Assembly: GCA_009602725.1 (NCBI GenBank)
Contig: WELB01000364.1
Span: forward strand, 8,281 to 71,043
Source of the DNA: Spirogloea muscicola
Taxonomy: Eukaryota > Streptophyta > Zygnematophyceae > Spirogloeales > Spirogloeaceae
Direction: 5' to 3'
Length of the DNA: 62,763 nt
Below, piece after piece: positions 6,640-36,320 of this stretch; position 1 is the stretch's first letter; every line of letters begins with the position of its first letter. The position numbers and the translations under genes are program-made. Below the pieces are notes generated by a model that was not told where the DNA came from, made no database searches, and saw only the letters and a program-made list of their open reading frames with translations.

Positions 6640-8300
6640 TGTGGTGCGCCGTCCTTCTTGCAGGGGCAGCTGTGAGCCGCCTTGCGGAGCATCTTCAGCC
6701 TGCGGCCCGGCTTCCCGAGCTGGACGATATGCAGCTGTCGTTGGCCATGTTGACCAAGGCCATTGGGCAGCGGCCCCAGTACTTGACGTGGGCCACTCCG
6801 CCGTCCCCAGGGGCGTTGGCGGCGTACGCGGATTATGATGCAGGCATGGTGGCGAGCTTGGCGGCCCTGGTCCGCCACCAGAGCTTCCTCCAGTTGCCAG
6901 CCGCTATTTACAAGGCGGCGCTACCCCTCAGCCACGGTGGTCTCGGCCTGCGCCCGCTCGCCCGTTCTTGCCGGGCTGCATACCTCGGCAGCTGGGCGCA
7001 GACTGCCGCCTCCGTGGCCCAGCGCTTCATGGTCCACGGCCGGCGTGCACTGGAGCAGGCGGTGGTGGAGGTCGACATGGGCGCGCTGCCGTTCCAGGTG
7101 TCGCGTTGCTCCACCCACCAGGAGCTGCTCGCGGTGCACCCGGACCTGGCAGGCCAGGCGGTCTCCTTTGCGCACCTCGCACACACCGCTGACTTGCGCG
7201 TCCAATCGCGCTTCGCGGCCGTGGTCGACAAGGCCGCCTACATCACCGCCGTGCTGCAGCTCCCCGAGGCCGACTTGCGCGGGCAAGCGAGACTCCAATC
7301 GGCCTCCTCCCCGTGGGCAGCAGCGTGGCTTCAGGCCCTCCCCATCAACGACGCCCTCACTCTCCCCGATGAGGTATTTCCGCACTGCCGTCCACCGGCT
7401 CCTGGGGCTGCCGCCTCCATATCTCCAGGTGTGCGTTAGTGTGTATGCGACGAGCGAGGGGCCGAGTCTGAGGAGCTGGCCGCTCATGATCTGCGCTGCG
7501 CCCACGGTGGCAAGCGGACAGCGGCCCACGACCGCCTCCGCTATGCGATGCATGGCATCCTGGTGGAGGCTGGCTTCTCTGGGCAGCAGAGCGCTCCGGC
7601 GTCATGCCGCTCCAGGAAAGGGCCGACGGTCTCCACGCCCGTTGCGTAGACCTGGTGGCCACCCCACAGGCCGGCGGGCCACGTCTTCTCCTGGACGTGG
7701 TGACCACCGACGCATACGACCGCTCACACCCAGCCCAATGTGCCCACCAAGGTTGGGTATGTGGTCGCCTGCGCCGCTCGTGCTGAAGAGCTCAAGTACG
7801 CCGACCATCCGCGGGAAGACGAGTTCTTCCCGTTGACAATCGGCAATCTGGCCGCGCTTCTTTTTAATTGACACCCATGGGGCGCTGGGCGCACGGTGGC
7901 TCGAGCTGCTCACCCAGCTCGCCCGCCACGCCATCGCCCGTCGCTTCCATCGGGAGCCGGCAGACTTTCCTGCAGTCGGGTCGCTGGCGCAAGTTGTATC
8001 CTATGCGCCTCGCCGTCTCGCTGCAGAGGTCTATGGCCCGGGCGCTGCACCTTCGTGCTGGCAGAGCCCTCGCTGCTGCCTCTGGCTCTGGCCAGGGGAC
8101 TCACTTCCAGGAGCCTAGCATCTCTGATCTGCGGCTGCTTAGCAGGGGTTACTGAGTGATTCGTAGCTGCTTTGTTTCTTCGTGTGCTTGGTTTTCTTAG
8201 CGCTTCCCCTGGCCCCCTTCTCGTACTCTGTTCGTTCTTTTTTGGGCTGGCTTTTCCAGCCCCTATCCTCAATGGCCGAGCACTTTCTTCTTTGTCACTA
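6640..8300 (+). mobile_element. LINE 3' half (RT thumb to endonuclease), degraded
   Basis: Frame 6672-7439 encodes the region after the reverse transcriptase palm: LPLSHGGLGLRPLARSCRAA, then GSWAQTAASVAQRF, then LQALPINDALTLPDEVF. The frame then breaks. Later pieces show RYAMHGILVEAG, an endonuclease core (VDLVATPQAGGPR, LLLDVVTTDAYDRS, ARAEELKYADHP), and the conserved tail RAGRALAAASGSGQGTHF with SDLRLLSRGY ending at 8155. The zinc-finger segment and endonuclease are frameshifted, so the copy is dead. The 3' UTR with hairpin follows to about 8300. Confidence 0.75.
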
Positions 8301-12745: not shown

Positions 12746-13009
12746 CTTTGGTGAGGTAAAGGAGGAGACCCACCAACACAGGCTCAGGCAACCTGAAAAC
12801 CCAATCTAGTGCTCTGTGGGATCGGAGGAGATGGGGGGGGTGGTTGAGGTGGCATGTCTAACACCAGTGTGCTTTATCACATAGACGCGATGCTAGAGGG
12901 CTGCTTAATCCCATACTGGGACAGCTCAGGGCAGTTTTATCCCATATGGTGCGCTGCTTGCTCCCGTTCGATTCCTTCGCTGCGCCCTCGCCAAGTCTCC
13001 CCCTCCCAT

Positions 13010-13330
13010 TGACGTTCACGCAGCTTTTGGCACTCGGTAGCTCGAACTCGTCCGGTTCGCGCGCGGCGCTGGAACCCGCCGTTACCACGGGGAGCAGGCT
13101 GACTTCAACGCAGCAGGCTCTCTCGCGCAGGTGTATCGCATGCGTGTGTCGGCCTCGCTGCAGCGAGTCAATGGCACGCGCGTTGCATCTGCGTGCCGGC
13201 CGAGCTTTGGCTGCAGCCTCTGGCTCTGGCCAGGGGACCCGCTACCTGGAGACTAGTTTGTCCAACCTGCGGCTGCTCAACAGAGCTTTTCAAGTGCTTC
13301 ATGCTACCTGAAATTGTGTGCTTCGGAATT
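13010..13330 (+). mobile_element. LINE tail fragment
   Basis: The plus strand shows MARALHLRAGRALAAASGSG, GQGTRY and SNLRLLNRAF, a diverged C-terminal motif. Upstream in other frames is YHGEQADFNAAGSLAQVYRM. A hairpin unit follows at about 13355-13400. Confidence 0.6.
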
Positions 13331-13399
13331 TGATCTGGCCCCTTCGTTCTTTTCCCTGGGCTGGCCTCTCACACCCACCGCCCTTCACTGGAAGCGTCT

Positions 13400-14302
13400 C
13401 TTCTGTCGTGGTGGACGGGTGGCGGACGAGGTCGGCCGTCAGAGGCGCAGGCATTCCGGCACTCCCACTCTGAAAAGGAGTAGCAGCTACTCCAGAGGCT
13501 ACTTTGGAGAAGTAGCTGCTTCGAGATGTTGCTCAGTCGATTCTGACGACTCCCTCTGTCGCAATTATTGGCTGCATCCAAGAGCTACCATTTGCCGGCC
13601 TTCTCCATTCCTGCCCTCAGCTGCACAGTTGCCCATCTTCGTAGAACCAGCACATCGCCCCGACATATCGTGTGTTTTCCAGGTCAGCTCATGGTGGCAT
13701 ACACAGATCACACCAACACAGGAAGATAGTTACTCTCTTAAAGGGGGTCAAGTGCTGTGAATGCCCAACCCGAACAGACAAGACAGGCACCACCCACACC
13801 GAGACTGGGTGGCAGCCATAGCTAGCACGCAAGGCAGTTGCCTCGATCAAGGAGAAGCTCGGAGTACTGGGCCACCCCCTCTCATAGTGGAGCGCTCCTA
13901 CAGCCCACTTGGCAAGCTGAATGAGTTTCCCAGCCCCGTCGTTGTTCACCAGATTCCACGTCTAATTCAAGAAGCATGGATTAATGTGTATTGGCATCGT
14001 AGCGTCCTTGAAAGTAAGTATCGGCTCATTGAGCTGTTTGTCAGTGCTACATGCGGAGCATTACTTATTTCCACCCTGTGAGTGCAACACCAGCTGCCAC
14101 CGCACGAGAGCCTGAGCGGTGGCTTTGCCGGATGCCTCGAGTACATTGGCACGGGCTTATTAATCTGCTACAGAAGAGCAGGATAGAAGCAGCAGCAGTG
14201 GCGGTGATTGGCGCCACGCTGACCGGCAGAGGCGGGAGCCTAGTCATGCGAGCAGCACAGGCAGCGGCAGCGGCAGCATGCCGTGCACAGGGCACCGCGT
14301 CA
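13400..14302. other. No recognisable gene
   Basis: Intergenic DNA on the 3' side of the minus-strand mosaic gene. Open frames are short and carry no domain that I recognise. Confidence 0.4.
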
Positions 14303-16235
14303 TTAGGTGGCCATGCAGCCGGCAATGCACAGAGTAAAGTAGGTGATGCCATTCAAGTCTCCAGTCGTGCCCCAGCAGCAGGCAGCGCAGTAATTGATAT
14401 CCCTGTACTTAGGATATGGGCAGTACGGGTATGTTTTGCAGTAGCGAAAACCTGGATCAGGGAAACCTCCAAAGCACTTGCCGCGGCACGCATACACGCA
14501 TGCTGCAGGGTGAGGATGAGAGACAATTGTCAGTATGTAGTGGCCTGTTACTGGCACATGTGGTAGTGTGCTGAACTGGAAATGTGGCCAACTGAGGGAG
14601 AGAAGCAGAAAGGGGAGAGGGAGAATTATAATAGGGAGAATATAGGAGAGACAGAGGGAGAGAGAGAGAGGGCGGGGCAAGAGAGGAGGGAAGAGAGGGA
14701 GAGAGAGGGCGAGGCGGCCTGGAGAAAAAGAGGGTGATAGGCGAGAGAGACAGGAGAGGGAGAGGGAGAGGGCGAGAGAGAGGGAAGAGGGGGGGGGGGT
14801 TGGGGAGACAAAGATTAGAGAGAGTACTGAAGAGCTCAAACAGGCGGCACACAAGAGGATGGACGAAGGGGGAGGAGGGGAGGAGGCGGAGGCAGCACTC
14901 ACAGTCACAGCGGCCGTAGTACCAGGGGTCAGCGTGGTTACAAGTGACCTGGCAAGCGGAACTGTATGTCACGCCGTTGGCTGCACACAAGAACGAGTCT
15001 AACGGGCCCGGCTGGCATGTCGCGCAGTTGATGCCCTGCGGAGCTGCCAAATATACCAGCGCACAACTCTCAGCAGCCATCATGATCGTGGCAGCCTGCC
15101 AACCAACATAAGCAGAAATATTGGCAGCAGTTATGCTTCACAATGGCCGATATGAGGAGGACAAGGCAGAGAGCTGGGGAGGCCCCAGAAAAGGTGGGGA
15201 GGTCTGGGAGGAGGGAGAAGGGGTGGGGAGGAAGGAAAGGGGGGGCTTACACCGGCAGGGTATAAGGAGCACAGAGCCAGGCAGAAGCAAGGTGGGATTA
15301 AAGATATCATTGAGGTAAAGAATTGCAGCGGCCGTGACAGCTGTGCCACACTGCGCCACATACTGCTGCACCACGCCCGAAAGCGTGTCCCCTGCTGTCA
15401 CGTAGTATGGCGTGAAGCCGCTGCATAGGCAGGACTAGTAGTGTCAGAGTGCAGCTCGGCCATGCGTCATCAGCGCAGCGGAGCCACCAGCCCTGCAGCC
15501 CACCTTTCGGTGACAGCCTCGGGGTACTGGAGGCAGATCTCCTGGCCGCTTGCGATGAGGTTGCACAGCTTTCCAGGGTTGAGCAGTCGGAAGTCGAGCA
15601 GTGTCAGGTTGTTGGACACCAGGAGGGTGTGGCACGTGTCGCCGTCCTCAACCATGTACTTACCGGACTCCGGGCACTGCAGGCCGTCACCATCCGTCGC
15701 CGTTGTTGGCTGCACACAAACCTGCACCGCGGCCACACACATCGCCTCGGCGGGCACCTCGTAAGTGTGGTTGGCCAGCAATCAGCTTTCGTGAGAGGCA
15801 CAATCAGCGTCAGCAAGCTGCTCACGGTCAAAGTGCGGAGCTCACTACAGTGTCGTGACCTGACCAGACATCGAGGCAAGGCCCTATCTTGTTTGTGTCA
15901 AATCTGTATGCAACAATTATCAGGCTTCCTACTTCCTGAATGTGAACAGGCAAAGCATTGGACAATGAAGGACTCCTGACATGCTGAGTTCTGTGGGTCC
16001 CATATAAAAATCTGATAATCTGTCTTCCATAGAGCTGCCTGCTGTGCATCTCTACAGCGAGCGGGCGGGCAGCAGCAAACCGTGGTGTTGGAGGGCAGGG
16101 GCTGCGAGCAGTTCGTGAGGGGGTTGAGAGTGGTGAATGAGCTCAGTGGAATTGGAAACCGTGCAACAACAGATGCACACGATGTGCCAACCTGGGGATC
16201 AGACCCGACCAGGTAGTATCGCGCACACGGGTTTT
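14303..16235 (-). other. Three LysM domains and two Kazal-like modules
   Basis: LysM 1 (16235 down): CARYYLVGSDPQVGTSCASV, then LNPLTNCSQPLPSNTTVCC. LysM 2 (about 15675-15510): GKYMVEDGDTCHTLL, then LLNPGKLCNLIASGQEICL. LysM 3 (15420-15251): YYVTAGDTLSGVV, then YLNDIFNPTLLLPGSVLLIP. These show the GDT and NP...GQ hallmarks, and the first two have the Cys pattern of eukaryotic LysM. Kazal-like 1: FLCAANGVTYSSACQVTC. Kazal-like 2: GDLNGITYFTLCIAGC at the very C-terminus. The splice phases between LysM 2, LysM 3 and both Kazal exons agree; only the LysM 1 to LysM 2 join is unresolved. Confidence 0.75.
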
Positions 16236-19200
16236 CTGGTGGCCCACGCCAGCACATTGTCAGTACACTAAAGGAAGTGAAGTACTTCCGAGGTCAATGC
16301 ACTTCAACACAACCCGCATCCAAGAGGATGACTGTACAAAGCTGGTATAGCCAAGGAACACGGTCAGCTGTCTTAAGTGAGGTCGAGGTCTGTCGACTTC
16401 TGCGCAATTAAGCATTGGGACCCAGATTATTTGGTGGTGGGAGAAGGTAGTGGCTGTGCTGAGGAGGTAGTGAGCAGAAGAAGTGTGAGCTGTCCACTCA
16501 CCAGTCTGGCAAGATGCTCTGCCTGTCACAGGCGATGGAACGCTGGTGTAGCCCGTTGGGCAGCGGCAGTCCATGCCGCCAAAGCCGTTCGACTCACACA
16601 TGCCGCCGGCACCACATGGGTTGGTCTTACACAGACATGGGTTGCTTGGACACGAAAGGAGCACACACGTTGGGAGGCCCGTGACAGTGTTGTTGGTAGT
16701 CGAGATGTAGCCCGGCGGACACGCACAGCTGTAACCAAGTGTGCCATTGGCCGTGCAATTACCACGGCCGCAGGGATTGGGACGGCAGGGGTTTGCAATG
16801 CCGCCAGGCATGAGCACCGGGTAGATGGGCGTGCTACGCATCATGCCACAAAGGCCGGTACCGGCCACCATGGGCAGGCGAATGTAGCCGCCCTCGCCCC
16901 AGGTGGCACCCCACGAGTTGCGCACGAATCACACGGGCACCGCAAGAGTTGTATCATAGCCCACTACCACGACGGCGTGATTGAGGTCCTCGCCACATAC
17001 GCCTGAGAACGTGCCCTGTGGTTCAAGCAGAAAAGGTAGGGACAATGATTTGGTGCAGTGACAAGAGTCAGATAGGGGAAAAGCCAGGCACATGAAATTG
17101 AGACGTGAGGAGGAGAGGGGGGGAAGGGAGAGGGTGTGCTCGACGGCAACAAATTCGCACTTACATACGTCAAGAGCTACCAAATAATTGAACCAACATA
17201 ATGCCTGTTAATTGTGGACTACTGAGCTGAGAGGGACTGGCGGCCAGAGGTTGGAGGGGGAAGGTAAGGAGCAGAGGCTGACATTGATGTAGGCCTGAAT
17301 GTCATTTTGATCGGCCTGTATGGCAACAATGATGGGCTGCATGCTGACCGCCTGCATGAGCGAGAAGGCGTCCTCCGCAGGCACAGACTCCCAGCCGGCC
17401 ACGCGCGCTGTCTGCTTGATGCCTGCTCCCTGCATGAGTTGCTGGAATCGACATGTCATTGCAAAGGAGAAGACTGTCTACAAGGTGGGCACCCAAGAAA
17501 GAGCAAAGTTGCCTCAAGTAATGTCATGTAAAACTAGGGGCCAGGGCTCAGGCTTGCAATAATCGGGCCAGGTAAGAAGAAATAGAGGTTGGGGGGCGCG
17601 CTTTGGAGGAGGTTAGAATCATCATCAACCAATCATCATCAACCATCAACCATTGACAAACATGTCTATAAGACTTGACGAGTGACTAACAATTCTCGGA
17701 GAAAGTAAACGTGGAGAACTGCAACATGGGGGCCAAGACAAGTACGGTGGGCAGCAGGCAGGTCTCATTGCGGCCATCATAGGGGTACTGGTCTTCTGTT
17801 GCAATGCTATTATTCGCGATGTAGTCGATGGCGCTCGCTGGCCATCCGCCTGTGCACCCTGCCTTGTTGACCTGGCGCATAATATAGGGCACAATCCGGG
17901 GTGTCAGGGGAGGGGAGCAAGAGCTGGTCAAGGTAAAGGTCCAGACAAGGGGTTGCAGTACTCAACGCGCCAGCCAGGTGGTTCATAGCGATGGCCGCCA
18001 AGATGAACTAGGATGGTCCATGAACCTCTTAGAGTACGTTTCAGAGCACCATGTGTGACCTTACGTATTTGTGACAATATATATTACAATCAGTGCATGC
18101 GACTAGAAATTACCGTGCAGTCAAGGAGCTGCTGCTCGGAGAGATCAGGCAGGACGCCAGTAGCTATAGCGACAAGCGACGACACAGCAGCTGTTGCAGA
18201 AAACGCCCAGCAGCTGTCTGCACAATCAGGCAGAAAGGCGAAGAGAAGGTCAGAGAAAATAACCAATGGTTGCAAAAAGAAGCTGAAGGAAAGGGCAGTC
18301 TTTTCCACAGCATCTCATTCACTACCAGTCAGCAGCATTCCTCGTCGACTCTACCAACATAAGAAAGTGACAGTATTGCAACCTTTGGTTCTGTAGATAT
18401 AATTTAGTCACAGTAATTAGTTCCAAACTGTCCTCCCAATTGTCACTCTGCTTATCGTGAAGAGTGAGAGCTACTCTGACTCTGCCGGCTTACCACAGCT
18501 GTCCAGCTGATTCTTGATCGGCGGCACAGTAGGCGGCTGCGCTCTGCGGTGATCCATCCTGGGCGGCGGAAGCACAGAGCCATACCGGTAGTTGAAGGAC
18601 GCCGTCTCAGATGCCTGATCGAGTCCCCGTAGACCGAGGCGGTTCGGATACGTCACTGCACCAACGGATGGCGAGAGGAAGGAGACCATGCATGGATGAA
18701 GAATGTTGAGAGGATTAGGTGCGAGGGCAGGACACTGAGACTTACACTATGAACATACGCCCTGAAGGAAGAGGAGCACTTGGCTTGAGAAAGGAAGAGG
18801 GGGAAGGGGAGAGGGACAACGGAGTTGCATGTGAAAATAATCTGATAATGAGACTGGGAGGGGGAGTTAACAGGTAGGGAGCAAAGAGCGAGCCAAGATG
18901 ACAGGAAGAGCGGGAGCAAAGGTGAATAGAATCATGCATATGAAGAGAGATGCTATAAAGATGTGGGTTATGGGAGAGTGGTGACTGATGGAGTGGGCAA
19001 CAAGAGAGAGGGAGAACAGGGTGATAGGAAGTGCTCACGGATAGGCTCAGCGACGCCCTTCTGGTGCTCTTGGCACTCCTCAAGAGACCGCTGGCCGGCC
19101 ACAAATGTCGCGCTTGCATTGGACCCTTTGATGACCGTCGCGTTTGTAAAGCAGTTGTGATTGAAATCGGCATAGGAGATACCAGGTGCAAATATCCTAT

Positions 19201-22200
19201 TTACGGGGTAGGAAGCATTGAAGAAATTGTACGAGATGTCTATGTACGACAGCGCTTGCGGCAGCACGTAGCTAACAATCTTTATTGGGAATGGCCCCGT
19301 GAATGAGTTGTATGAAAGGTCCCTGCACGCAACACCAGCTACATGCTCGTTTGTCAATCCTGACCGAGCATCAGCAGCGACTTGACCATCTTCTGAAGGC
19401 TGCTCATTGCGGCTCCTGGACTACTTCTGTCGGCACTGGAGGAGATTGAGGCCAAAGTGCCAGAAGCAGGCCAATACACTGCATCGGAAGCTTGATACTA
19501 TCCTGCAACTGCGACTGTCCAAGGATAGCTCGAAGCACCAACATATAATCAGGAACATTGGGTGTTCCTGGACCTCCATTGCGTTTTCCTAGCCTTGCAA
19601 ATACCTGTTGGATTAGCAGGCTTCCTGTTCTTACACAAGAGTCTCAGGCTTGGCTTTCGCAGAAGGCTAGCTTCAGCTGCTGATCGAGCGAGAGGGAGGG
19701 AGGGGGCCTCACAGCGTCTTGATGTGGTTGTTGAGCTTCCCAAGCCCTGGAATAATGGACCCCGAGAAGTTGTTGTTGTTGAGCCGCCTGCCCACCCACC
19801 CGCATGGCATGCTCAGAGGAGCATGGTCAAGTATCTGGTGTAGGCCTGTTGTGCCTTCTGCCTAGACCCAATCTAGGCTCAGCATGCACTTCGACTTTAA
19901 CCGTCAACTTTGTGCGGTGAGAAGGTGCAGAGGCGAACTCACAGGAAGCGCATGTCAGTGAAGTTGGTGAAGGAGTCTGGGATGGGCCCTAACATGCTGT
20001 TGTCATTCAGGTACCTGGCCGCACTCGCGCACCAGCTTCAATACTGGGTGTGAACGCACGGGTGACAGGAAGAAGAAAGACAGGAGGGCTGACAGGAGGG
20101 CTAAAACAAGGAGGGGTCCTGGGAGCTCACAAGGCCGTGAGACTGGGGAAGCGACCAAATTGATCAGGGATGCGCCCAGTGAACAAGTTGTTGTGCAGCC
20201 GACTGTTGGTGGGCCACAATGAGCGCGAGTCAGGCAGAATATAGTTGCCCAGTCCAGGGGAGGACTGAGGTGCAACAACAAAGTGGTGCACCTTCGAAAC
20301 AGAATGGGATGGAGAGTACAGACTCCATAAAGTTGAACAGTGTCCACACTTCGTCGTCAGAGAAGTGCAATCCTGAACTCTAGCAGCGATGGACTACGTT
20401 CTCACAGAAATTTGAGCGCAGGCGGTATCGTGGTGCCGCCTATGACATTTATCGGGCCGGAGATGCTGTTAAAGGATAGGTCCCTGCAAGCTCCCGACGG
20501 CCACCTCGTAGTCAGCAGCCGCAGCAAGTGGCGCATGCACAGCGACGGGGCAGGGGCAAGCACGGCTGCTCGCCTTGGTGAGACCAGTAAGAGATAGGAA
20601 GCACTTACACATCTCGCAGATTCGTGTAATTGAGCCAGTCATTCGTTAGGCGCCCAATAAATCTGTTGTTGTTCAGGTAGAGGCTGCACCAAGAATAATA
20701 CAAAAAGCACTGAAGGGAGGATGAGTTCTGGAAGGCCCTTGCTTCCTTCCTCGTGTCTCAGGTTGCTCCATACTCCTTCCTCCACCCTTACCCCTCCCCT
20801 ATCCTTCCCTGCACTCAGATTCTCACTCCCCATACTCCCCAAACCCTCCCCTTCCCTCCCTCCCTTTCCATCAAACCTCCCTCCCTTCCTTCTCTCTTCT
20901 CCCCCGATTCCCCACCAACCCAGCCCCATTGGGCTCCCCTTTCCCATTACTTGCCCCTGCTCCCTCACCAAGTACACCTATCCTTTAAGATCTCACCCTC
21001 TCACCAAACCCTCTCTCATCTCTGCTTGCTTGTGACATCCTCCATGCTGCTATGTAAGCTCAGCAGGCGAATGAATGGCCCAATGCCCTGGCCTAATGCA
21101 CAGCCTCCGATATACATCCACAACATTGTCGACTGTTGACAGTTGAAAGCAGTAGCCCATGCGCTCTAAAAAGCTTATTTAGACTACCATGCTAACCCAT
21201 AACCCCCCATTGATTGACTGCAATAATGAATTTGGCAATCGTAGGTCGGCCTTAGAGCTCACTTTACAATGGCAGGGTTGAACGGTGGAATAGTTCCAGT
21301 GAGATTGTTCCCCGCCAGGTCTCTGCAACAGAGGCCGGTGCTCGCCGTGTCAGGGTGCTGACGGCCTCTTGGGCGCGAGCCCAAGGAACGGGGTGTTTAT
21401 CATGTGGATTGTTTGATGAAAACTCACATAGTGGTGAGCGGGAGCGTCTTCAAGTTGGTCGGAATGGGCCCAACATACTGGTTATATGACAAGTCCCTGT
21501 GAACCTGCACTGAGCGTACTTTAGGAGGACAGCGGAGGAAGGAGGTTGCCTTGACCGGTGCACGCTGAGGCGCATCATTTACGACGTGGCAGAGCGAAAG
21601 AAGGGAAGGGAGGGCGTGTCAACCAGCCAAGCATGAGACCAGAGGGGGGACAGAGAGAGGAATGGACGAGAGGCAAGTGGTGAGCACAAAGAGGACAAGG
21701 ATGGCGAGATGAAGGAGGAAGACTGAAGGCAAGAGAGAAAGGGCAAGGGGGAGGAGTGGGGGACTGAAGATGACCATGAGACGGGCTAGGCTATCAGTAA
21801 GAAGGCACAAAAGAGGAAGCAAGTCAGGGCGAAGAGGGGCCAACAAGTAGTAGAGGCCGTAGAAGTTGGAGTAGTTGAGCGTAGAAGGGATGCGACTACC
21901 AGTTGCACCAAGGTAGTTATATCCCATGGTCCTGTGAAGGGGTCAGGCAGCGACAGACATCAGAACACAAGCACAGAGAGGGCGAATCAGGCCATAGCAT
22001 GGTGGAAAGACTGAGTGACAGCGTCTGTGTTCCTCTTCAGTGCAACTTGAGGATTGCTGAAGCGCTGTGCAAGATCACGTCAACAATAAGAAGTGAGGGA
22101 CATGGGCTGCGCACAGCTTCTGCAGATTTGGGTATGCCTTCCCAACGCTGTCAGATAAATATGTCAGCTGGTTGTAAGCTCCGTTCCTGGGTCCTCGTGA

Positions 22201-23885
22201 GAAGAGAGGACCAAGCAATCTAAGTGGAATGGTCAACGATAGGTCAACGATTTTGATTCATCCCAACACGATATGATACACTCTCAAAAGGACAATATGA
22301 AGCTGCCACTCAGATTTGGTTGTTGGAAAGATCAGAAAGGAGGTAGGGCAAGGCCGGTGGCTCACAAAATGGTGAGGTTGGTGAAGGCAAGCCACTCGTC
22401 AGGGTAGGGACCTGTTAGCGCCTGGCAGCAGATGTGCCTGCAGCAGGGGCGGGCGCAAGCGAGTGGCACAGTGCACTGTCAGCTACTAGAAGCCCCTTAT
22501 ACCTCCTTACCCCGACCTCTCTCCGTTCTGGCCATCTTCCTCCCTCTGCTTAAATGTCCCTCTCCCCTTCCTTCCCCTTCCTTCCCTCAGCTTGACCCTT
22601 TCCCCTTGTCTTCCTCTTGGCTCTCCTTCCTCCCCGTCTCTTGCCCTCGCTCCCTTCCCTTCCCTCCTTCATCCCTCTTTCATCAACTGTTCCTTTGTTT
22701 ATGCCTCCCCTCCGCCTGCCCCCCCCTCTCCAATGCCTGCCTTCTTCGTGCAGCTGCAGCAGGAATGCCAAGCTGCCAGCACCCAATCTGCCGCTTCAGG
22801 TGCACCAGCCACAGTAGAGCAAAATGGAGTATGGCTGGACACTCACAGGAGGACCATTTGGGTGCATTTGGCGAATGACAGCGGCAGCGGGCCTGTGAGG
22901 TTGTTGTAGTCCACGTTCCTGGGGGAGAGGGGAAATCATGCGCCCTGCCTGTGTTAGCTGCGGAGGAAGGCGCTTAGTGGCAAACCGGAGACGAAAAAGT
23001 GGGGGGAGGCCAGGCGGGAGAGGGGAAGGTGAGCAATCACACAGTTCAATGAGACCCGCAAGGTTGCCAAGAGAGTCAGGGATGCTGCCACCGAGGGGGT
23101 TGTTGCGCAGCCACCTGCAACGTGCGAGAGATGCAGTAAGCAAGGGGGTGATTAAGGAAGCTGGAGTAGTAGGAGGATGGGAAGGAAGAAGGGCGTGCAG
23201 AAGTAATAAGGGAGTACTCTAGAAGTAGCAAACTTCAGAAGGACATTGTGCAGAAGAAGGTGGAGGGAGGGTGCAGACACGAGAGTGAAAGGGCAGGCGC
23301 GAAATGGTGTCTGCTCCTTGCAGGAGACAGAGGAGGGAAGAAGAGGTGCTAGGATGCAAGAAGGGGATGGGGGGTCTTGACGGTGAGGATGAGAAGTAAG
23401 GAGGGGCTTTAAGAGAGGGGAAGCAAGGGACGGTGAAGGGAAGGGGGAATAGAACGGAGCGTGTCATTGCAAGGCAGCGATGTGCTCACAGGAACTGCAG
23501 GTTTGGAAGGTCGCCGAGGCATGTGGGGATGGGTCCTGTCAAGTTGTTTGATGACAGATATCTGTACCACCGCCAGCAAACACGCGTCCGGGCAGACAAG
23601 CACGTGGATCAGTCGTTTCACCGTGGCACCTTTGCTGCAGCCACCCCACCACCTCTGGCAGCCTCCTACCATCCTACCACTCACCCCTTCCATCCTACCT
23701 GTTATGATGCCTGCCCTCTCCATGATCACATCCCCTCCTCCCATGTGTCAGCACATGATAGGAACGAAGGTAAGGGGGAGGGACACTGCTAACTTAGGGC
23801 AGTTTAAGCTCACATGTTGATCAGGCCCTTCATGTTGCAAATCCACAAGGGGATTGGTCCTGTAAGATTGTTGTAGTCGAGGAAT
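14303..23885 (-). CDS. LRR-papain-EGF-LysM-Kazal mosaic protein (5' end unresolved)
   Basis: One minus-strand gene appears to span this region. Order in the protein: about 15 leucine-rich-repeat exons (23885 to 19039), a papain-type C1 peptidase, EGF-like modules, three LysM domains and two Kazal-like modules, TAA at 14303-14305. Key join: LRR cap exon 19322-19039 ends in phase 1 and fits the protease exon starting at 18655. Protease exons are 18655-18494, 18217-18114, 17871-17746, about 17441-17283 and 17015-16502. Later exons are 16235 onward (LysM 1, donor unresolved), LysM 2 ending 15504, LysM 3 15420-15251, Kazal 15043-14903 and 14502-14303. LRR and LysM bind peptides or chitin/peptidoglycan, so a secreted or surface role is inferred. 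Oddity: an in-frame TGA at 16931-16929. No signal-peptide exon was found upstream of 23885. Two adjacent genes, or a pseudogene, remain possible. Confidence 0.7.
14600..14810. repeat. GA-rich low-complexity tract
   Basis: Nearly pure purine on the plus strand (GAGAGG repeats). It lies inside the intron between the two Kazal exons (14902-14503) of the minus-strand mosaic gene. Confidence 0.8.
16502..18655 (-). other. Papain-family (C1) peptidase domain and EGF-like modules
   Basis: All catalytic elements are visible: oxyanion Gln in IKNQLDSC, nucleophile Cys in CDSCWAFSATAAV (Gly of the usual CGSCWAF replaced by Asp), LSEQQLLDC, GCTGGWPASAIDYI, ATEDQYPY, His in CGEDLNHAVVVVGYD, and Asn in VRNSWGATWGEGGYIRL. 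The exon joins are phase-consistent. Between the His and Asn segments the reading is VPV-stop-FVRNSWG; the family normally has Trp near this point, and TGG to TGA is a single change. After the domain come two or three Cys-rich EGF-like modules (NPCGRGNCTANGTLGYSCAC, then NPCGAGGMCESNGFGGMDCRC). Confidence 0.85.
19039..23885 (-). other. LRR exon array of the mosaic gene
   Basis: Single-repeat exons were read at 23885-23814, 23561-23490, 23114-23043, 22918-22847, 22437-22366, 22186-22115, 21931-21845, 21496-21428, 21322-21263, 20683-20609, 20483-20406, 20202-20131, 20014-19943 and 19787-19713. The cap exon is 19322-19039. Most are exactly 72 nt, one 24-residue plant-type repeat each (for example YLSSNNLTGPIPTCLGDL). 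All introns between them are in phase 2. The cap exon holds about two more repeats, then NHNCFTNAT and a Cys-containing C-cap. A worn repeat (DLSNNQI, then stop) near 22340 is probably a dead exon. Introns are rich in long one-sided purine or pyrimidine tracts (20780-21010, 22500-22740). Confidence 0.8.
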
Positions 23886-24126
23886 CTGCATGGCATCAAG
23901 GGCGAATAACAAAGAGAATACATACTGAGAGGTCGGAAACCAAAGAAAGGGTACAATCAGAAGCAAGAGAATGAGATTGAAAGGGTGAGAGGAGGAAGAG
24001 CTAGGGATGCAAGGAGAAACTGGACGAGGAAGGAGGGTGGAGGGAAGAGGAGAGGGGGGGGGATGGGGGGTGGCTGAGTGGTGGGGCGGATGGAGGACGA
24101 GGTGAATTTGTTGGCATGACACTGAC

Positions 24127-24310
24127 GNCGCGGGGAGCCTTGACGGCGCAGCGCCGAGCCAGTGCCGCGGCCGCGCGAGCAGCCCCGCCGGCGCCGCGGC
24201 GGCGGCCATGGAAGGCGCCAGGTCTAGGGTTTTGAGGTTTAGGGTTTAGGACAAGATCTCACAGCAGCCTTAGGGATTGGAAGTAGGGTTGCGTTTTAGG
24301 GCTTAGGTTC
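24127..24310 (+). repeat. Ambiguous base and degenerate telomere-like repeats
   Basis: An N at 24127 is followed by a GC-rich stretch. After it come TAGGGTTTTGAGG, TTTAGGGTTTAGG (24238-24250), GTAGGGTTGCG and TTTTAGGGCTTAGG (to about 24307). TTTAGGG is the telomere repeat of most green plants and many algae. It may be an interstitial telomere scar or an assembly join. Confidence 0.6.
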
Positions 24311-24339
24311 TCAAGGGCTTCGGGTTCAGGCCTGCTGTG

Positions 24340-24560
24340 AGATTCAGGGTGCCGGCAGAGCCCTCGCTGCTGCCTCTGGCTCTGGCCAGGGGACCCACTT
24401 CCACGAGCCTAGCATCTCCGACCTGCGGCTGCTTAGCAGAGGTTACTGAGTGATTCGTAGCTGCTTTGTTCCAATAGAGGTCGATGGCTGTGATTGGCCA
24501 GCCCAGAAAGAGAATGAAGAAAGCTCGAAGGGGCAGATAAGCGCTAAGCACACAGCGACT
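24340..24560 (+). mobile_element. LINE tail fragment
   Basis: The plus strand encodes the worn sequence AGRALAAASGSGQGTHFHEP, then SDLRLLSRGY and stop at about 24448. A hairpin unit (GGCTGTGATTGGCCAGCCC) follows. It lies next to the telomere-like repeats. Confidence 0.65.
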
Positions 24561-25336
24561 CAAGCGACTCAACTTTTGCTGCCCGCGAGCTCCTTGATCA
24601 AGGATGACTTCCGCCACGGTAATGCTACAACTCGAATATCAGCGGGGCTGGCCGGTCATGCCACTGCCAGATACAGGCTGCTCTGCACCAGCCACTAAGC
24701 ATCGTAAAGCTCATGAACTCGCCCATTTTGCAGGGTGGGCCATAGCAAAAGCTTTGCAAGATCGTCAGGAGTATTTTCAATGATGTAGTTGTGATCAGTG
24801 GTGTTTGTCTCCGCAACTTGCAAAGACTGACCTGTTGCCTCCTATACGAAACGGAGGCAATCAATTGACTCCATCCTGTCATTAAGCTGTCTCCTCTTCA
24901 CTGATGCAGCAAGACTGTTGCTCCTCCTATACATATCTGCCTGAGCTGATTCGCGGGCACGAAGCTGTGGTCAAACGAGTTGGTAAACATGTTGCGACTA
25001 TGAGGCTCTAGTGCAATGAACCAATAAAATCTTTGCAAAGTGAACCCGACCTTCTTCAACAAGGAGGACTCTTTGCACAGATTGCATGTTAGCAACAACG
25101 AGCGCTCCATTCAGCACAAAGGCCTCAAGAGAAGAGGTAAGTAGTAGGTAAGTAAGAGGTACAACTTGTTTTGCAATTCAAGATAAGCTGCAGCCTTGGC
25201 TAAGGGGAAGCATTGACAAAATCATGTCAGACTGCCTCCTAGATCAAGGAGCAAATTTACGTACAACCTTGCAAGCTTATAGCAATCCCTTTTCCTGTCA
25301 AGCTGCTGCAAAGGCGGAGGTGAAGTACACCAATCG
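24560..25336. other. No recognisable gene; 3' flank of COQ6
   Basis: AT-richer unique sequence between a LINE tail and the COQ6 stop. No domains seen. It probably includes the COQ6 3' UTR. Confidence 0.4.
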
Positions 25337-28300
25337 TTACATCCCCATCGCGACTCTCATGAATTGCCGTTTCAGAGGTCCACTAAATTGAACCGCTGCC
25401 AGACCAAGATTTCGAGCTACACTGAAGGGGCCCCACTGCACCTTAAACACTCGGTGAAGACCATCAAGAGCAGCCATCATTGCAACATTGGCCCTCCTTC
25501 GCTCAAAGTCGTACTGTGCCAGAATACTTTGCTGGAAAACAGCAGGCCACGAGTCACAATAGAATCAGTCACTTAAGCGTGTGCCCTGCAATCAAGCACT
25601 TGCTGACCTTGACCTGCTGCATCGGTCTTATTTGCCACAAAACTGCTGAACTGGACAGTGTCATCTTATTTTCGAGGCATGAACTTGAAGGATAATGGAA
25701 CAATAGACTAGAAAAGGCTATGGAAGATATGTGAGGAACAAATTGACATACCTCTCCAATATCACCACCATTCTCACACGCCTTGTACAGACTCTTGACC
25801 AACTGAGATGCATCTCCAAATCCTAGATTTACACCTTGCCCAGCTAAAGGATGAACTGTGTGAGCGGCATCCCCTATGAGGGCTAATCTTGGCTGGACAT
25901 ATGTTGCTGCATGGTTGAGAATGAGCGGGAAGGACATCCTTGGGCTGAAGCTTCCTGTCACCCTAGGAGGTACTTGAAAGTCATCACCGCAAGCCGAGAA
26001 GGAGGCTGCTCGCAGCAACCTCTGAATTAGGTCATCTGTACTAGTTGAGGGGAGAGGAGAGTGATCGTGAACCAAAGCATTGTTGACGGCTTCTGCAAAT
26101 TGGGCATTATTTGCCTCTTGCAGTTGCTTGGCCATCTCTGCAGTTGTAGACCAAACAATATTGGAAAATTTGTTGCCTAGTGGCAGGAGTGCAAGTGGCC
26201 CTGTGGGGAGGAACCTTTGCCAAGCAGTGGCATGTGGTCTGTCAACCTCAACAGTGGAGATAACTGCTCGCTGGCCATACTCCCAGCCAGTGGTCTTCAA
26301 GCCCGCCATTTGACGAACCTTTGATCTCCCACCATCAGCCCCGACCTGCTCATGACAGGAAAGCTTTAAAAGTTTGCGAAAGCAGCACAAAAGCCAGTAC
26401 GCTTTCAAAAGATCATTACTAGCACTCACAAAATTAACTACACAAGAAGGCGTGCTTTTCAGAAAGGGATAGAAGTGTGGCTCTGGTAACCAGCCCCTAC
26501 ATCCTCTGAAGTGGCCAGGCTCACCACTAGCCTTGCTCGGAGCTGTCTACCACTGCCAAGCCTCAAGAGAGCCCAATCTTCAGACGTCACAGTGACCCCC
26601 ACATTGCTGCTTGGAGATGGACCATGATTCGGCCTGTCTTGGCTGGTGGAGCTTGTAGCAGGCCACTCAATATTCTCAACACTATCAGGGCAGATCAGAT
26701 CAACTGAAGCCAAATTCTGTGAGCAAGATCAGAACATGTCACAGACTTGTTTTAACATACGTGCGCATGCGCGCTTGTGTGGGCTGCTTGTGAGATGCAG
26801 TCACTATCCTTGGGAGGCTTGAAACGCCTGCAATGGACAACAGCAGACAGCATGTGAAAGCCTTGGTGGCAAAGTAAATCGGACCTGCAGTCTGTCATAA
26901 AGAGATGAAAGGAGCACCCTATTCTCCACCAAGTACCTGCACCACACAGGCACTCTGTGGCTTGCTTCACCTGTGAAGGACAATTTTCTAATACAAGTAA
27001 TTTAAGTGTGATCAGCCTGCACGAGTCATGATGGAAGCAATATGAGAACGAAAGCACAGGCAGACTTTTAGTAGAGTAATTTGTTGGAGGTGATGCTGAC
27101 TTCAACCACTGGCTATTGATGTACAGAATGAAGCGCATACCCGAGCCGAGGTTGGCCCACATCTGATGCGTGATATCGCACATATCCCTGACCAGCATAA
27201 TCCCACACCTGTAGAAACTTGTCATACTGGCATGAGATATCAGTAGCCACTACAACGTTGACCCAATGTGATGCTTCAATGAGTTCCTGAGACATGCCTA
27301 CATGGAAGCTGAGCTCCCATGTAGATGGTCAGTCAGCTTCTGTGACATCAAGCAGAGTAAGATTCCGTGGAGACCCAGGTTCGTGATCAAGTCAAGTGAA
27401 TCCAAAAAGTTGTCCAATCTTGTTGACAATGGAAACGCCGAAATGAGAAGTAAATACCTGAGCTGCCTACCTGCATGGTGTCGAATGAAGCGTGACGACG
27501 TTCTGTAATAGCTTTCCATGCACCGCATGCTATAGGCACAGTCATTGCAGGAGGAATAATGAGTAGTGGAGTAGTATTGGCAGATCCAGATTGCAACCTG
27601 CTCATCCTGTGGCACTTGAACCCAGTACACTAGATCATGTGCAACACTGGGACAAGCTTGTCCTGCCTTTCAGAAAATTTATGGTTGATGGACTGATTGC
27701 AACAGTCCTTGGATCGGGAACGGATTTCAGCTCTGGATCAGTGACTTTTATCTTGCTGAGCTCTTGAGCGTCCACTATTGTGATCCGCAGATCCTTGGTC
27801 AGTGATGATGTGGCTGCAAATAGTAAACTCCAACAGCAGTGACAATTCAGCATAACTCATACTTGGCGGTGGAAGGTACAAAGCCCCTGCTGCTGAGCAG
27901 TCTTGTACGTAAGCAGGAAATGAAACGTGGAAAGAATAGAAACTTGACGATGTTGATTGTCCTTGCTTAACAGCAAAGGCAGGAGGCATTGACTATAAGG
28001 AGAATAAGATACTCGGGGCCAGAACAAAATCTCGCTAAAACAGGTGAATCACCATCTTTGATTGTGTCATTGTTCCGTCGACCTGATTACCCAGCATTCT
28101 TATGTACCTTGTTGCAGGCATCAAGACTCGTACTAAAGCAGCAGCGTCTTGAAACTTACCTAGACCACAAGCAAATGCAGCGCCAACCATGCCACCTCCA
28201 ACAACTGCCACATCGTAACGGTCTCTGTCTGCACCGGCTGCTTGACATAAGGACCGCGTGAAGGTGGCCTGCAGAGCAATAGGATGTCATCAATGCCGCT

Positions 28301-28858
28301 GGCCAGAAGAATGTCAAATGAACACCTTAATACACACCCTCCCTCTTCGTTGCAGGTCAGCTGCTACACAGTTGGAAAAGACTCCAGAGTACGACTTGCC
28401 AGAGCACGCCACTTGCAGCATGCCATGCTGGCAGTAACAAGTGCAACTCAATGACTTGAGAAATAGAAGCCCGTGAATTGACTCAGGAGAATCTGCAGTG
28501 CACATCAGCAGACTTGTCGTACTCAAGCTACCGACAGCTTCTTCTTGGGCAACCTGACAATGAGGCTGCTTAACGCAAGTGGAGTAAGGTACTGCCATCC
28601 TTTTCACCGCGACTTGAGCTGAGTAGACACGTGCCCATGTTCTGCAATGACTGAGGCTGCATAAGTCGGACACTTTGCCCGGATGAGCTGCATTTATAGC
28701 GATTTATGGCCATATCGAGCGACTTCAATCGATACAAGGCTTCGGATCTTGCATTACTTGCACCCTGGAGCTAGAGACATCCTGGGTAGATAAGATTGTC
28801 AGCCACACTAACGCACATAGAGGCTTGCTGCTCACCGAAGGCAGCTTGTGGCGGCCAT
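25337..28858 (-). CDS. COQ6: COQ6, ubiquinone biosynthesis FAD monooxygenase
   Basis: Flavin-dependent monooxygenase of the mitochondrial coenzyme Q pathway, needed for C5 ring hydroxylation. Ten exons join in phase (descending): 28858-28836, 28641-28608, 28268-28160, 27813-27667, 27529-27471, 27208-27141, 26936-26885, 26716-26525, 26345-25752, 25531-25337. They give about 490 residues, close to the usual 470-480. The start gives MAATSCLR then TWARVYSAQVA, an Arg-rich, acid-free presequence; the first two exons are the least certain. Motifs: VAVVGGGMVGAAFACGL (FAD dinucleotide site, residues 40-56), PDPRTVAISP, MQ-VWDYAGQGYVRYHASD, VGADGGRSKVR (about 229), and LIGDAAHTVHPLAGQGVNLG (second FAD motif, about 384). 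The tail ERRRANVAMMAALDGL fits the family. Intron 4 appears to use a GC donor. CPP1 starts divergently 550 bp upstream. Confidence 0.92.
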
Positions 28859-29193
28859 TGTTCGGCTGTATATATGCGTGTGGCAAGGCTCGGGGGTCAG
28901 CAATGAGGATGACCACGTTGACCCGACTGTCCGAGATGAGGATTATGCCGACTTTGATTGACGTGATCGCCGCGGAGCCTCATGACCAGCTCCTCTGGTC
29001 AGTCGGTCATCGACCAGCGAGAGCTGGCAGAGACTTACGGCTTGGCGGCCAGCGACCGCCGGCGCAGGCCCCGAAACCAGGCCCGTTGCAGACGAGCAGC
29101 AGCCCGTCTGCCGCCGGCTACAGCGCCCCGGCTGACGCAGGGCCGAGGCCTTTGGCAGCTCTCCTCAGAGTCAACCCTCAGGGGGCGCATGTC

Positions 29194-29238
<45 letters not shown>

Positions 29239-29407
29239 ACGGCTCTTTGCGCGTTGACGGTGTGTAACTGCGGCTATGTTGGCTTACCGGCTGACGCTGA
29301 CGGAGCCCCGCCGCTGACGGAACCCTCATAAACCCCGCGCGAAGGGAAACCCCCCAGCCAGCAACCGCGGCCGCTAGNCGCCTGCCACGGTGAGCGCCGG
29401 CGCCGCC
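28859..29407. promoter_or_regulatory. Shared 5' region of COQ6 and CPP1
   Basis: About 550 bp separate the two divergent start codons. A TATATA tract (about 28867-28874) lies just before the COQ6 ATG. A (GCG)n tract occupies about 29193-29237, and an N sits at 29378. Open frames across the GC-rich part look like repeat artefacts. A bidirectional promoter is inferred from layout only. Confidence 0.4.
29193..29237. repeat. (GCG)n trinucleotide repeat
   Basis: About 15 uninterrupted GCG units in the COQ6-CPP1 intergenic region. Confidence 0.85.
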
Positions 29408-31876
29408 ATGGCGGCTCGCTCGCGGCCGTCGCCGTGCTCCGAGCTGGCGTGCGCCGCCGCGCTTTACCGGTCAGGGTTTGGTGGTGGAGGCCACTTGGTG
29501 GAGGCGGCTTGCAGGCCACTTGCAGGCACGCTGTGCGCATGAGAGGAGAGGGAGGCCACGTCAAGCCGCAGGCAGCAGCCCGTGCAAGCATGGGGGCTAC
29601 TTGAAGCAGAAGGGGCCGTTGGGGCTGCGTGAGCCTGGGGGGTCTGGGGTCACAGTGTGGGGGCAGGCTGGCCTGAGACAGGGATGCGATCCAAGTCTAG
29701 GGGTCAGCTTAGCCTTATGTTACAGAGCCGAGGTTTATAGTGCTTCAGTTGGCATCAAGAGCTCTGCTTATGCCCTTTTACATCGACTCGCCTAGTATCT
29801 CCGCAAGCTGTTGCTGCTAGCGCTGGTTGGGCATGGAACCGTTGAAACATACCAAATGGGCTAGAAGGAAAACCCTTGTGCTTCATTGATTTCCAATCTA
29901 TTCCTCTATTCTCTAATGTCCATTTAGCAGTCCTTGCGCTGTTGTTGCCTGAAGGACTGTGCTTGTGCTGCAGCTGGGCGCCGCCGCTCGAGTGCAGCAG
30001 GGGCTGCCGGCGGCAGCTGTGGTCAGATGGGCGCTCAGCGGTGGTGCAGCCGCTCCAGGCCATGGACGCATCCCTCGGAGGAGAGGGCGCAGCTGCGGAC
30101 GAGCCCGACTTTCCCACTGGTATCTAATATACACCACTTGCAAATGTTCAATGTGCTGGATTTCCGTCCACAGTCCAAGATACCTTCAACAATCCAAGAT
30201 ACTGAATCGACAGAGACCAGTGTAGCTGTTTGCAAGCCCACCTTCAAGGATGGGCGTTTTGTCCCTGTCTGTCTCGTCTTGCCAAGCTTGTTGTGGTGTA
30301 AGCAACCAAGTTATGTGGCACCCTCCATTGTCCTCGAACGTTTTTTTTTTAGCTAGTTGACGTTGCCTGACATGAGCCTCATCCGCACGACACTCTCTGC
30401 AAAGTTGCTGCCAAATAATATCTTCCTTAGGCATCACGTTGCCACCATAGCCAGCCCCACTTTGCACCAAGTGTACGTGGTAAAAGCATGGACTGATCAC
30501 TTGGGTAGGGTGTCATGCACACTGACTGCCATTTACATTCAGCTGACAGTCTGCTGAGCCTGTGGCCAGGCCCGGCTCCCGTCTTCCCCAGGTTGGGCGT
30601 CCGGGACCCATACAAGCGGTTGGGCGTGTCCCGTGATGCATCCAACGAGGAAATCCAGGATGCAAGAAATTATCTGGTGGAACAGTACAAAGGCCATGAG
30701 AAGAGCAAGGAGGCAATTGAAAGTGCGCACGACCGCATCATCATGGAGAAGCTCCGGCTCCGCAAGGGCTCCAAGATCAACCTGAAGGTGTGTCACCTGC
30801 TGCTCTTATCTGCAGACTTTTTAGTTGTCCCTTGCTTGATTAGGCTTGCACTAGTGCATGTATCTTTGCTGATAGCAAGTTGACTTGGCGAGCGGCTGAC
30901 TGCAATCATTGTCGTCCATCCTCTTATGTGAATTGGTTGAGCATTTCTTGATCTGGCAGGCCAACCTCAAGAAGAAGGTGGGAGAGTCCCCAGCGTGGGT
31001 GCAGGCTCTGGCCAACCGGATAGAGTCCCCCAAGCCTGCTGTCATTGCACAGCGGGGTGCTCTCTTCCTTGCAATCGGAGCCTGGAGCGTGATCAACTCC
31101 GCTGAGGGAGGCCCCGCATTCCAGGTCTGAGGGTTTGTAATGAGCTTCATGATATTCTTATCCTCAAGTACTGTAGTTTCAGGCATCTTCTTTCTGGCTA
31201 CATCGGTCTTCTGTCGTTTCAAGCTTGCATAAATATAAGGAATGCTCATGGCATCCTCACTGTGGCTTTGCTCTGCTATATCAAGCTCTGAAGCGTCGGA
31301 CTTATGACTTGCTCGCTAAAACTTCTCACATGTTTGTGCTACTTTTTGGGCAGGTTGCGGTTGCTCTAGGTCTGTGCATCTACTTTTTGAACGAGCGAAT
31401 AAAGAGCTTGGGGCGTGCTTTCTTGCTCGGGTATGATGACCTGACATTGCTCGCCAAAGAAGCTTTGCTTTCACTATGTACACGCTCCTCCACATTCTAG
31501 CAAGTGGGACTCAGTATCTGTTGCATGCTTTTACTATGCAAAGCGGTGGCAAGACTAGAAGGCTATTTGCATAGACTAGCTTGGAGCAACATGATTGGCA
31601 GTGTGCATGAGGTGCTTTGTGCATGGGCCCGAGTTGTCTGCAAGCTGTCTGAAGCTGGCCAAGCCTATCCTGACACCTGGATCTTGTTGTGCATCTGGAC
31701 ATAATATGCCCCTCCACCCCACCAGCCTCGGTGCTCTTCTCGTTGGGTGGGTGCTTGGCTCCATCATAGTCCCTCTTGTACCGCCATTCATTCTCCCCCG
31801 ATACTGGTCACTTGAGCTGATTACCTCCCTCATCTCCTATGTATTCCTCTGGTTAGCCACAACCTTCTTGAAGTAG
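29408..31876 (+). CDS. CPP1: CPP1, chaperone-like protein of POR1, chloroplast
   Basis: Plastid membrane protein with a J-like domain; in land plants it stabilises protochlorophyllide oxidoreductase. Six exons join in phase: 29408-29469, 29974-30119, 30570-30787, 30960-31124, 31354-31430, 31726-31876 (TAG). They give 272 residues (family about 250-260). Residues 1 to about 70 look like a transit peptide (MAARSRPSPCSELACAAALY, Arg/Ser/Ala-rich). Then come VFPRLGVRDPYKRLGVSRDA, EEIQDARNYLVEQYKGHE and SAHDRIIMEKLRLRKGSKIN, a J-like region without the HPD triad of true DnaJ proteins. The C-terminal half has three to four hydrophobic segments (AQRGALFLAIGAWSVI, VAVALGLCIYFLNERIKSLG, LGALLVGWVLGSIIVPLVPP, LITSLISYVFLWLATTFL). 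TGTAA at 32281-32285 may be the poly(A) signal. Divergent from COQ6. Confidence 0.92.
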
Positions 31877-32335
31877 ACAGTTGCCAAAACTGTCCTTAGT
31901 GTCACCAAGGTGTGCTTGCAGCAACGTGCTTACTTGTAGTCTATTGGAGATTTGGCCTTGAACGGCCAATCCTAGGTCAAGTAGCAGTCACGTGACCTTT
32001 CTGCTGCCATTGTAGCATTCTATGCTCTGCTCGTAGGCACTCGGGTTTTTGCAGTACATTGGTAGCAGTAGCTCACATTAGCGAGACTTTCTTCTCATGG
32101 GCAAAGCTTGCAAGTATGAATTTGAGCTCGGCCACCTGTTCGTGTGATTGGTGCAAGCTATGCAGACTAACCGAGCACTGGAGCAATGTGCTATGCTCTT
32201 CATGTGCCCCTGAATGTGCACCTTGTCGAGTGTGCTTGAGATTTGCCTTGTCATGTGAACCCACTGTCATGTGAACCCACTGTAATTTGGGCGCATCTTT
32301 AGTCTAGGACGATAACAATGAAGTCGTAGATATGA
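31877..32335. other. 3' flank of CPP1
   Basis: No gene seen. 'CATGTGAACCCACTG' occurs twice in tandem (about 32252-32283), just before TGTAA at 32281-32285. Confidence 0.4.
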
Positions 32336-32339
32336 TGAA

Positions 32340-32437
32340 GTCGGGGACTCGGGACTGGCGCCAAGAGAGTGGCGCATTAGGCCAAGAGCCTGTGTCGAGT
32401 GTGTGAGTTACAACTATTGAAATTCAATAGTTGTAAC
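32340..32437 (-). mobile_element. LTR remnant ending in a 31-bp palindrome
   Basis: The segment GGACTGGCGCCAAGAGAG, GGCCAAGAGCCTG resembles the middle of LTRs A and B. It is followed by a perfect inverted repeat at 32407-32437: GTTACAACTATTGAA, one A, then its exact complement. Confidence 0.5.
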
Positions 32438-33360
32438 ATTGAACTAAAATGTGAACCTCATCCAAAAGATACGCAAATACTGCACCTTTTCAGCGCCGTC
32501 AAAGTCCACCCAGAGATTGTACTTCAGAAAGTTCTTGCCACAACTACCTACTTGCAGGTCTACTCCGGCTTATCGACTCTGGTGACCAGACTGTCACGAG
32601 CCACAAATGACAATGCTGCTTGTCTTCATCAGGACAAAAGAGAAGGTGTGCGAGTGTGCTTGAGATTCTGGAGGCCAAATTGAACCAGTACACTACTTAT
32701 GCAAACGGCATGGGTGAAGCATTGGGGCTTAAAAAAGCTCCACTCTTGTATGGGCTAAGGAAGCAGGGCAAGTGCACGGCTAGAGTGAGAGGGGGCAAGT
32801 ACCCATGCGTGAGCACATTCAAGTAAGACATGCCAACTTGGGGAGGCTGAGCACCGACATGAAAGCAGGTCGTCTTGGCCAGGGTTACTTTGACAAGGTA
32901 GTGAATTGCAGGGGCCTGCAAGCGCTGCAGGCTCAGCAATAGCTGCATCCTGTAGCACGCATGAAGGCCTGCCGTGCACTGATTTGCCCCAAGCTTCCCC
33001 CTCAACAACGGCAGTGGGCGTCGACCTGCTAACCGAGAAAGTGGCCTTTCACAGCCATCGGCCCATCTAGAAGAGAGAGAAAAGAGAAATTTGCCTCCTA
33101 ATGGCGCTTATGACTGTGAAAGGTCAGCCATAAAAAGTACAACAAGGTCCAAAGGAGTTGGAAAGCACAAAGGAGATCGAAAACAAAAACTACGAAGGAA
33201 AAGAAAGAGCTGCTTCTTCTCTGGATAGGGGGGGAAGGCGCGCGTGAAATTGAAAGGGAGGCCAATTCTAGCCTTGCAAATGTCCTTTAAACTGGGTAAT
33301 GAGCTGGCTAAGGGGGACACTAATATCCCCAAGTGAGCACATGCATATCAGACAAGCTAT
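32438..33360. other. Retroelement-flanking sequence with one or two hairpin units
   Basis: From about 33060 onward, fragments typical of the LINE 3' UTR appear in reverse orientation (GTGAAAGGTCAGCC, AAGGTCCAAAGG, GGCGCGCGTGAAATTGAAAG). Nothing recognisable is seen at 32440-33050. Confidence 0.4.
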
Positions 33361-33369
33361 ACTGAGGAA

Positions 33370-36120: not shown

Positions 36121-36320
36121 GAAAGAAGAAAGTGCTCGCCCATTGAGAATAGGGGCTGGAAAAACCAGCCCGAAAAAGAATGAACAGAGTACGAGAAGGG
36201 GGGCCAGGGGAAGCGCTAAGAAAAATAAACAAAGCAGCTACGAATCACTCGGTAACCTCTGCTAAGCAGCCGCAGGTCGGAGGTTGCTAGGCTCGTGGAA
36301 GTGGGTCCCCTGGCCAGAGC
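36120..36320 (-). mobile_element. LINE tail with 3' UTR
   Basis: The complement gives the end of the C-terminal motif (GSGQGTHFHEPS, about 36320-36290), a worn stop region, then the 'GCGCTTCCCCTGGCCCCC' block and hairpin to 36120. Confidence 0.6.

Follow-up and report, generated by a model that had tools for sequence, protein, structure and literature searches.

The window, the whole stretch of 62,763 nucleotides of Spirogloea muscicola DNA that was analysed, carries on its minus strand, from 23885 to 14303, the 25 exons of a probable LRR-protease-LysM gene, which keep a single phase throughout. The exons comprise 14 LRR exons with one LRR each, one cap exon, five protease exons and five LysM/Cys-rich exons. 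AG acceptors were present at all 25 exons and GT donors at all 24 introns. The features of the locus were as follows.

19713 to 23885, minus strand: LRR exons (n = 14) of 60-87 nt, 10 of the 14 being 72 or 75 nt; phase 2 in and out
19039 to 19322, minus strand: exon with the last LRR and the C-terminal cap (NCF...QRSLEEC), entered in phase 2 and left in phase 1
18656 to 19038, minus strand: linker intron from LRR-cap to protease, containing one TGTAA and, at 18689-18687, an in-frame ATG
18494 to 18655, minus strand: protease exon 1, with the RLGL motif, the pro-region tail and the oxyanion-hole Gln
18114 to 18217, minus strand: protease exon 2, with the catalytic Cys (SCWAFS)
17746 to 17871, minus strand: protease exon 3
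17283 to 17429, minus strand: protease exon 4
16502 to 17015, minus strand: protease exon 5, which holds the catalytic His and Asn and runs on into EGF-like modules
16929 to 16931, minus strand: in-frame TGA replacing a conserved Trp; TGG in the sister copy on contig C281
16081 to 16235, minus strand: LysM-like module 1, 3' border uncertain; without Pfam match
15504 to 15757, minus strand: LysM module 2, 5' border uncertain; 16.9 bits, below cut-off
15251 to 15420, minus strand: LysM module 3; 25.9 bits, above cut-off
14903 to 15043, minus strand: Kazal-like module 1; under the Pfam cut-off in the C281 copy (Kazal_2, E 6e-4); kin on C14 and C16
14303 to 14502, minus strand: terminal Cys-rich exon, stop TAA at 14305-14303; without Pfam match; kin on C14 and C16
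24128, no strand: single N, a probable assembly join; homology to C281 ends at 24126

The border between LysM-like module 1 and LysM module 2 was chosen among several options and is the least certain border of the gene model.

The genome (153 Mb, 471 contigs) was searched for relatives of the gene. A sister copy was found on contig C281, where positions 40880-51969 aligned to window positions 12998-24126 as a single block with 89% identity. The 20 exons from 23885 to 16502 were 96.0% identical between the two copies, and their introns were 88.8% identical. The splice dinucleotides were kept in C281 at all 20 exons compared, and the reading frame was kept except that one LRR exon differed in length by 15 nt, in frame; this agreement goes beyond chance. 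A third close copy was also sought, and the protein searches of the genome gave close matches on C364 and C281 alone. Eight other copy pairs in the same genome were 86.8-93.8% identical, similar to the window/C281 pair, a pattern consistent with large-scale duplication of the genome; the Spirogloea muscicola genome has been described as triplicated. The two copies probably arose from one duplication and thus represent one evolutionary witness. Shorter stretches of the window (4575-4669, 8044-8287, 36125-36839 and others) showed repeated matches to C281 at 20-64 kb; most of these were about 90-220 bases long and are likely dispersed repeats.

The dN/dS ratio between the window and C281 copies was determined by the Nei-Gojobori method with a custom script. 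The LRR and protease halves were both under purifying selection, with a dN/dS of 0.117 for the LRR part and 0.115 for the C1 part, and the cap exon had 10 synonymous and 0 nonsynonymous changes (dN/dS 0). The EGF part, with only 13 changes (10 nonsynonymous, 3 synonymous), showed no constraint at a dN/dS of 1.1.

The 5' end of the gene was investigated by comparing the two copies. Homology to C281 ended at window position 24126, beside the single N at 24128, which is a probable assembly join that removed the 5' part of the window gene. C281 contained at least four further LRR exons (53468-53394, 52783-52712, 52628-52551 and 52119-52051), followed by a run of 3,769 N. Position 23885, which the preliminary description gave as the limit, is therefore probably not the 5' limit of the gene; the LRR array continues 5' in C281, and the number of LRRs is at least 14 in the window copy and 18 or more in the C281 copy. 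No LRR-like exon or LRRNT motif was detected in C281 57404-69999 or in window 24129-34000. No signal peptide was seen, the 5' end lying in the gap in C281 and past the break in the window. Single Ns at 9610, 24128 and 29378 may mark assembly joins in the window, and the one at 24128 is where the homology to C281 ends. Upstream of the break, a partial gene resembling FAD-binding monooxygenases (FAD_binding_3, 3.3e-17) was found at window 25569-26546 on the minus strand.

The domains encoded by the gene were then analyzed with Pfam. The C281 exons matched Peptidase_C1 (1.7e-56, 192.2 bits against a cut-off of 20.7) and LRR_1 (6.5e-31, 100.2 bits against 20.6, in 7 stretches), and the three C281 LysM modules together matched LysM in two stretches (8.6e-11, 42 bits against 20.9). 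In the window reading frames, the three LysM modules initially described were upheld unevenly: module 3 exceeded the cut-off of 20.9 bits (25.9), but module 2 fell below it (16.9) and module 1 gave no Pfam match in its reading frame. The EGF match reached 17.3 bits, under the Pfam cut-off of 21.5. Kazal-like module 1 of C281 matched Kazal_2 at E 6e-4 with 20.3 bits, under the cut-off of 22.8; a search with this module plus the last exon found no Pfam family, and no Kazal match was found in the window's own reading frames. The proposed series of exons on one strand was confirmed; LRR, C1 and LysM matched above the Pfam cut-offs, and the EGF and Kazal matches lay below them. The last exon, described earlier as the second Kazal-like module, had no Pfam match. 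A structure model of this terminal Cys-rich exon, made without an alignment, was uninformative because of its low scores (mean pLDDT 52.6, pTM 0.29). Kazal domains are serine-protease inhibitors, and this, together with the match below cut-off, makes the suggested role of these modules as built-in inhibitors doubtful.

The catalytic Gln, Cys, His and Asn of the C281 copy aligned with those of ficin (ficin 3, E 1.7e-49). As in papain and ficin (C1A, cathepsin L-like), an NSWG motif was also present. However, the gene differed from papain and ficin in an additional residue that separates Gln from Cys, in its fused LRR and LysM parts and in its pro-region, where no match to the I29 pro-domain was found at E ≤ 1 (Pfam). 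One stand-alone paralogue likewise gave no I29 match, here at E ≤ 10.

Besides the window/C281 pair, at least 18 loci in the genome showed C1 followed by EGF/LysM similarity. They were located on C10 (two), C52, C144 (four), C280 (two) and C108 (three), with further single loci on C16, C14, C15, C32, C162 and C106. A Pfam LysM match was found within 3 kb at no fewer than 13 of the 18, and Kazal-like tails occurred in at least the C14 and C16 paralogues. Where LysM was found, the order C1-EGF-LysM was the same as in the window gene. In contrast to the window gene, the stand-alone loci had a signal peptide of their own (six read) and no same-strand LRR: tblastn searches at 11 of the 18 loci, several of them with runs of N and the C162 locus with little upstream DNA, found no same-strand upstream LRR at E ≤ 0.01 (0/11), and two gave chance-level upstream matches (0.58 and 0.75). 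The six paralogues opened with Met and a hydrophobic stretch, followed by a short pro-region, an RLGL-like motif and then the protease. The protease exon of the window gene starts just before its RLGL motif, so the LRR-cap occupies the place of the signal peptide and pro-region of the paralogues. The preliminary description regarded LRR and protease parts that are always separate genes as evidence against the fusion; half of this picture was found, in that none of the 11 paralogues had an LRR, but C281 keeps the junction. Two paralogues, L035 (C10:951000-958499) and L047, had odd active-site surroundings (CASCSAV and CADCWAV, respectively).

In the window, the C1A and LysM parts lie on the same strand in in-phase exons, with a TGA between them. 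This TGA is codon 643 of the joined window frame (16931-16929). The protease exons encode all four catalytic residues, as first described, but the Asn lies behind this codon. All of the other loci aligned (13/13) had Trp at this site. Among these loci, L005 and L034 represent one gene, several more form close pairs, and two, L007 and L008, encode papain-like proteins but fall outside the LysM group. The dN/dS ratio rose from 0.10 before the TGA to 0.30 after it, with 58 synonymous and 20 nonsynonymous changes upstream against 38 and 37 downstream (Fisher P = 0.003). The higher ratio may reflect decay, or merely faster linkers. If the TGA is real, the product of the window copy would comprise the LRR part and an incomplete protease but lack LysM, and it would be the C281 copy that reads through to the end.

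Chances are about even that the copy in the window represents a truncated allele or a pseudogene and that the full protein comes from the C281 copy only. The position of the TGA at a conserved Trp, the weaker constraint 3' of it and the 15-nt length difference in one LRR exon all agree with this reading. However, the remainder of the window frame and the splice sites were intact, and downstream of the TGA both LysM module 3 (dN/dS 0.09) and Kazal-like module 1 (0.06) were still constrained. Two copies cannot tell which one changed, and the TGA may be a single-base assembly or sequencing error, which would undercut the pseudogene reading.

We also analyzed the linker between the cap and the protease. 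The cap exon (19322-19039) and the protease exon (18655-18494) were phase-compatible, as proposed earlier, and the donor and acceptor were kept in C281. The linker identity between the two copies (0.892) lay inside the range of the 18 other measured introns (0.837-0.932), which indicates that the linker drifts like an intron. The statement that no new start is evident did not hold, because the region between cap and protease contains an ATG at 18689 that shares the frame of the protease exon and is conserved in C281 (MISFLSPCTA). This ATG is the sole real opening for two adjacent same-strand genes, one for an LRR protein that stops near 19039 and one for a protease whose start is 18689, and stand-alone proteases of the same family do exist in the genome. 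Nevertheless, we consider two genes unlikely. From the cap start to the protease exon, eight ATG-to-end candidates were common to both copies, and their best hydrophobic ten residues scored 1.25/1.34 (ATG 18689, read-through), in comparison with 2.76-3.05 for the six stand-alone paralogue signal peptides. Across this region, the scan thus found no signal-peptide-like start common to both copies, and a start at 18689 without such a stretch would be odd for a Cys-rich EGF/LysM protein. Two genes also fit poorly with the intron-like evolution of the linker and with the conserved, phase-matched cap donor and protease acceptor. On the minus strand, the linker contained no AATAAA. It did contain a TGTAA (18746-18742), which would suit an end of transcription there, but TGTAA was commoner than expected over the whole window on both strands (78 against 62.7 expected; 3/100 shuffles reached 78), and poly(A) words in the linker are uninformative. 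It is improbable that one gene gives rise to two products, namely a secreted protein with LRRs only, which would end in the linker, and a spliced LRR-protease: the open frame does run past 19039 to 18968, but the read-on tail differs between the copies and C281 stops earlier. Conservation, selection and the failure to find another start for a secreted protein all support a single gene for the LRR-cap and the protease, which is the likely reading.

The source of the LRR-cap half was also investigated. Relatives of the cap exon were found by tblastn at C274, C153, C242 and C455 (35-40%), and all four ran into proline-rich sequence, with Cys-rich frames following. At C274 and C455 a phase-1 donor closed the cap exon, the same as in the window, which makes it plausible that the cap exon was shuffled as an internal module; no phase-1 donor was seen at C153 and C242 with the donor pattern used. 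The LRR-cap genes on C153 and C274 (L061 and L062) that run into proline-rich and Cys-rich frames may form an LRR mosaic family. A C1A-EGF gene and an LRR gene are arranged head-to-head in each of two copies, at C144:268500-277499 (L047) and C108:33500-41499 (L048). This neighbouring LRR gene was considered as the fusion donor, but its similarity to the window LRRs was about 27-44% per stretch and made no case for it.

The gene was compared with known systems. In the genome contigs searched outside this genome, one bacterial C1 relative was found at 23%, and no relative was found among the viral contigs searched. The combination of a C1A peptidase with LysM has been reported for non-vascular plant lineages, C1A-lectin combinations are reported as not retained in vascular plants, and in chlorophytes and/or bryophytes other lectins occur together with EGF-like domains (PMC6362431). 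These C1A-LysM proteins share the papain-type peptidase and LysM with the window gene, but the sections of these reports that describe them mention no LRR part (PMC6362431, PMC2474614). Volvox VcPap-11 is described as a pheromone-induced C1A protease outside the mammalian cathepsin groups (PMC2474614). A count of Pfam domain combinations gave 209 exclusive to Zygnematophyceae (PMC11096116), and the LRR-papain-LysM combination may be among them. In the open literature, LRR, papain and LysM in one protein was absent from the titles and abstract starts among the matches listed. The view that no described protein joins LRR, LysM and a cysteine protease is therefore to be narrowed, since the LysM-C1A pair has been published and only the addition of LRR was not found among those matches; the enzyme half belongs to a type already described, and the added LRR half looks new.

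VcPap-11 is said to have been described with chitin-binding modules by Amon et al. in 1998. The LRR half shares the 24-residue plant-type LRRs and phase-2 72-nt exons of plant LRR receptor-like proteins and LRR-extensins, and it has the cap pattern (NC...QRS..EC) of LRX-type proteins. However, the window gene has a protease where those proteins have a kinase, a membrane anchor or an extensin tail.

Taken as a whole, the locus is probably one gene for an extracellular LRR-cap-C1A-EGF-LysM mosaic, which would have arisen by splicing of an LRR-cap onto a secreted C1A-EGF-LysM protease. The predicted order is at least 14 plant-type LRRs, a cap, a C1A peptidase without I29, then EGF-like modules followed by two or three LysM modules, with a Cys-rich tail at the end. 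By exon shuffling, an LRR-cap module with a phase-1 donor would have been spliced onto the protease and would have displaced its own signal peptide and pro-region. The sequence suggests that the gene yields one transcript and a secreted product, and a secreted sensor-protease is a reasonable reading of it. Beyond the anatomy and constraint shown here, the LRRs would most likely bind a protein partner, which would give the protease its specificity, the LysMs would anchor the enzyme on chitin- or peptidoglycan-like glycans, and cleavage would thereby be confined to a surface. More speculatively, and with a low probability, the LRR array may functionally replace the pro-region in a recognition-gated extracellular protease, where LRR and LysM binding would switch on or aim cleavage; if so, the protein would be a receptor with proteolysis, not a kinase, as its output.

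If the gene gives one transcript, an LRR ligand-binding part was added to papain-LysM proteases in an algal relative of land plants, and exon shuffling would have built a surface protein from immune-type recognition modules and an enzyme. The presence of a pair of copies, one of which carries a stop codon, makes the function of this protein testable.
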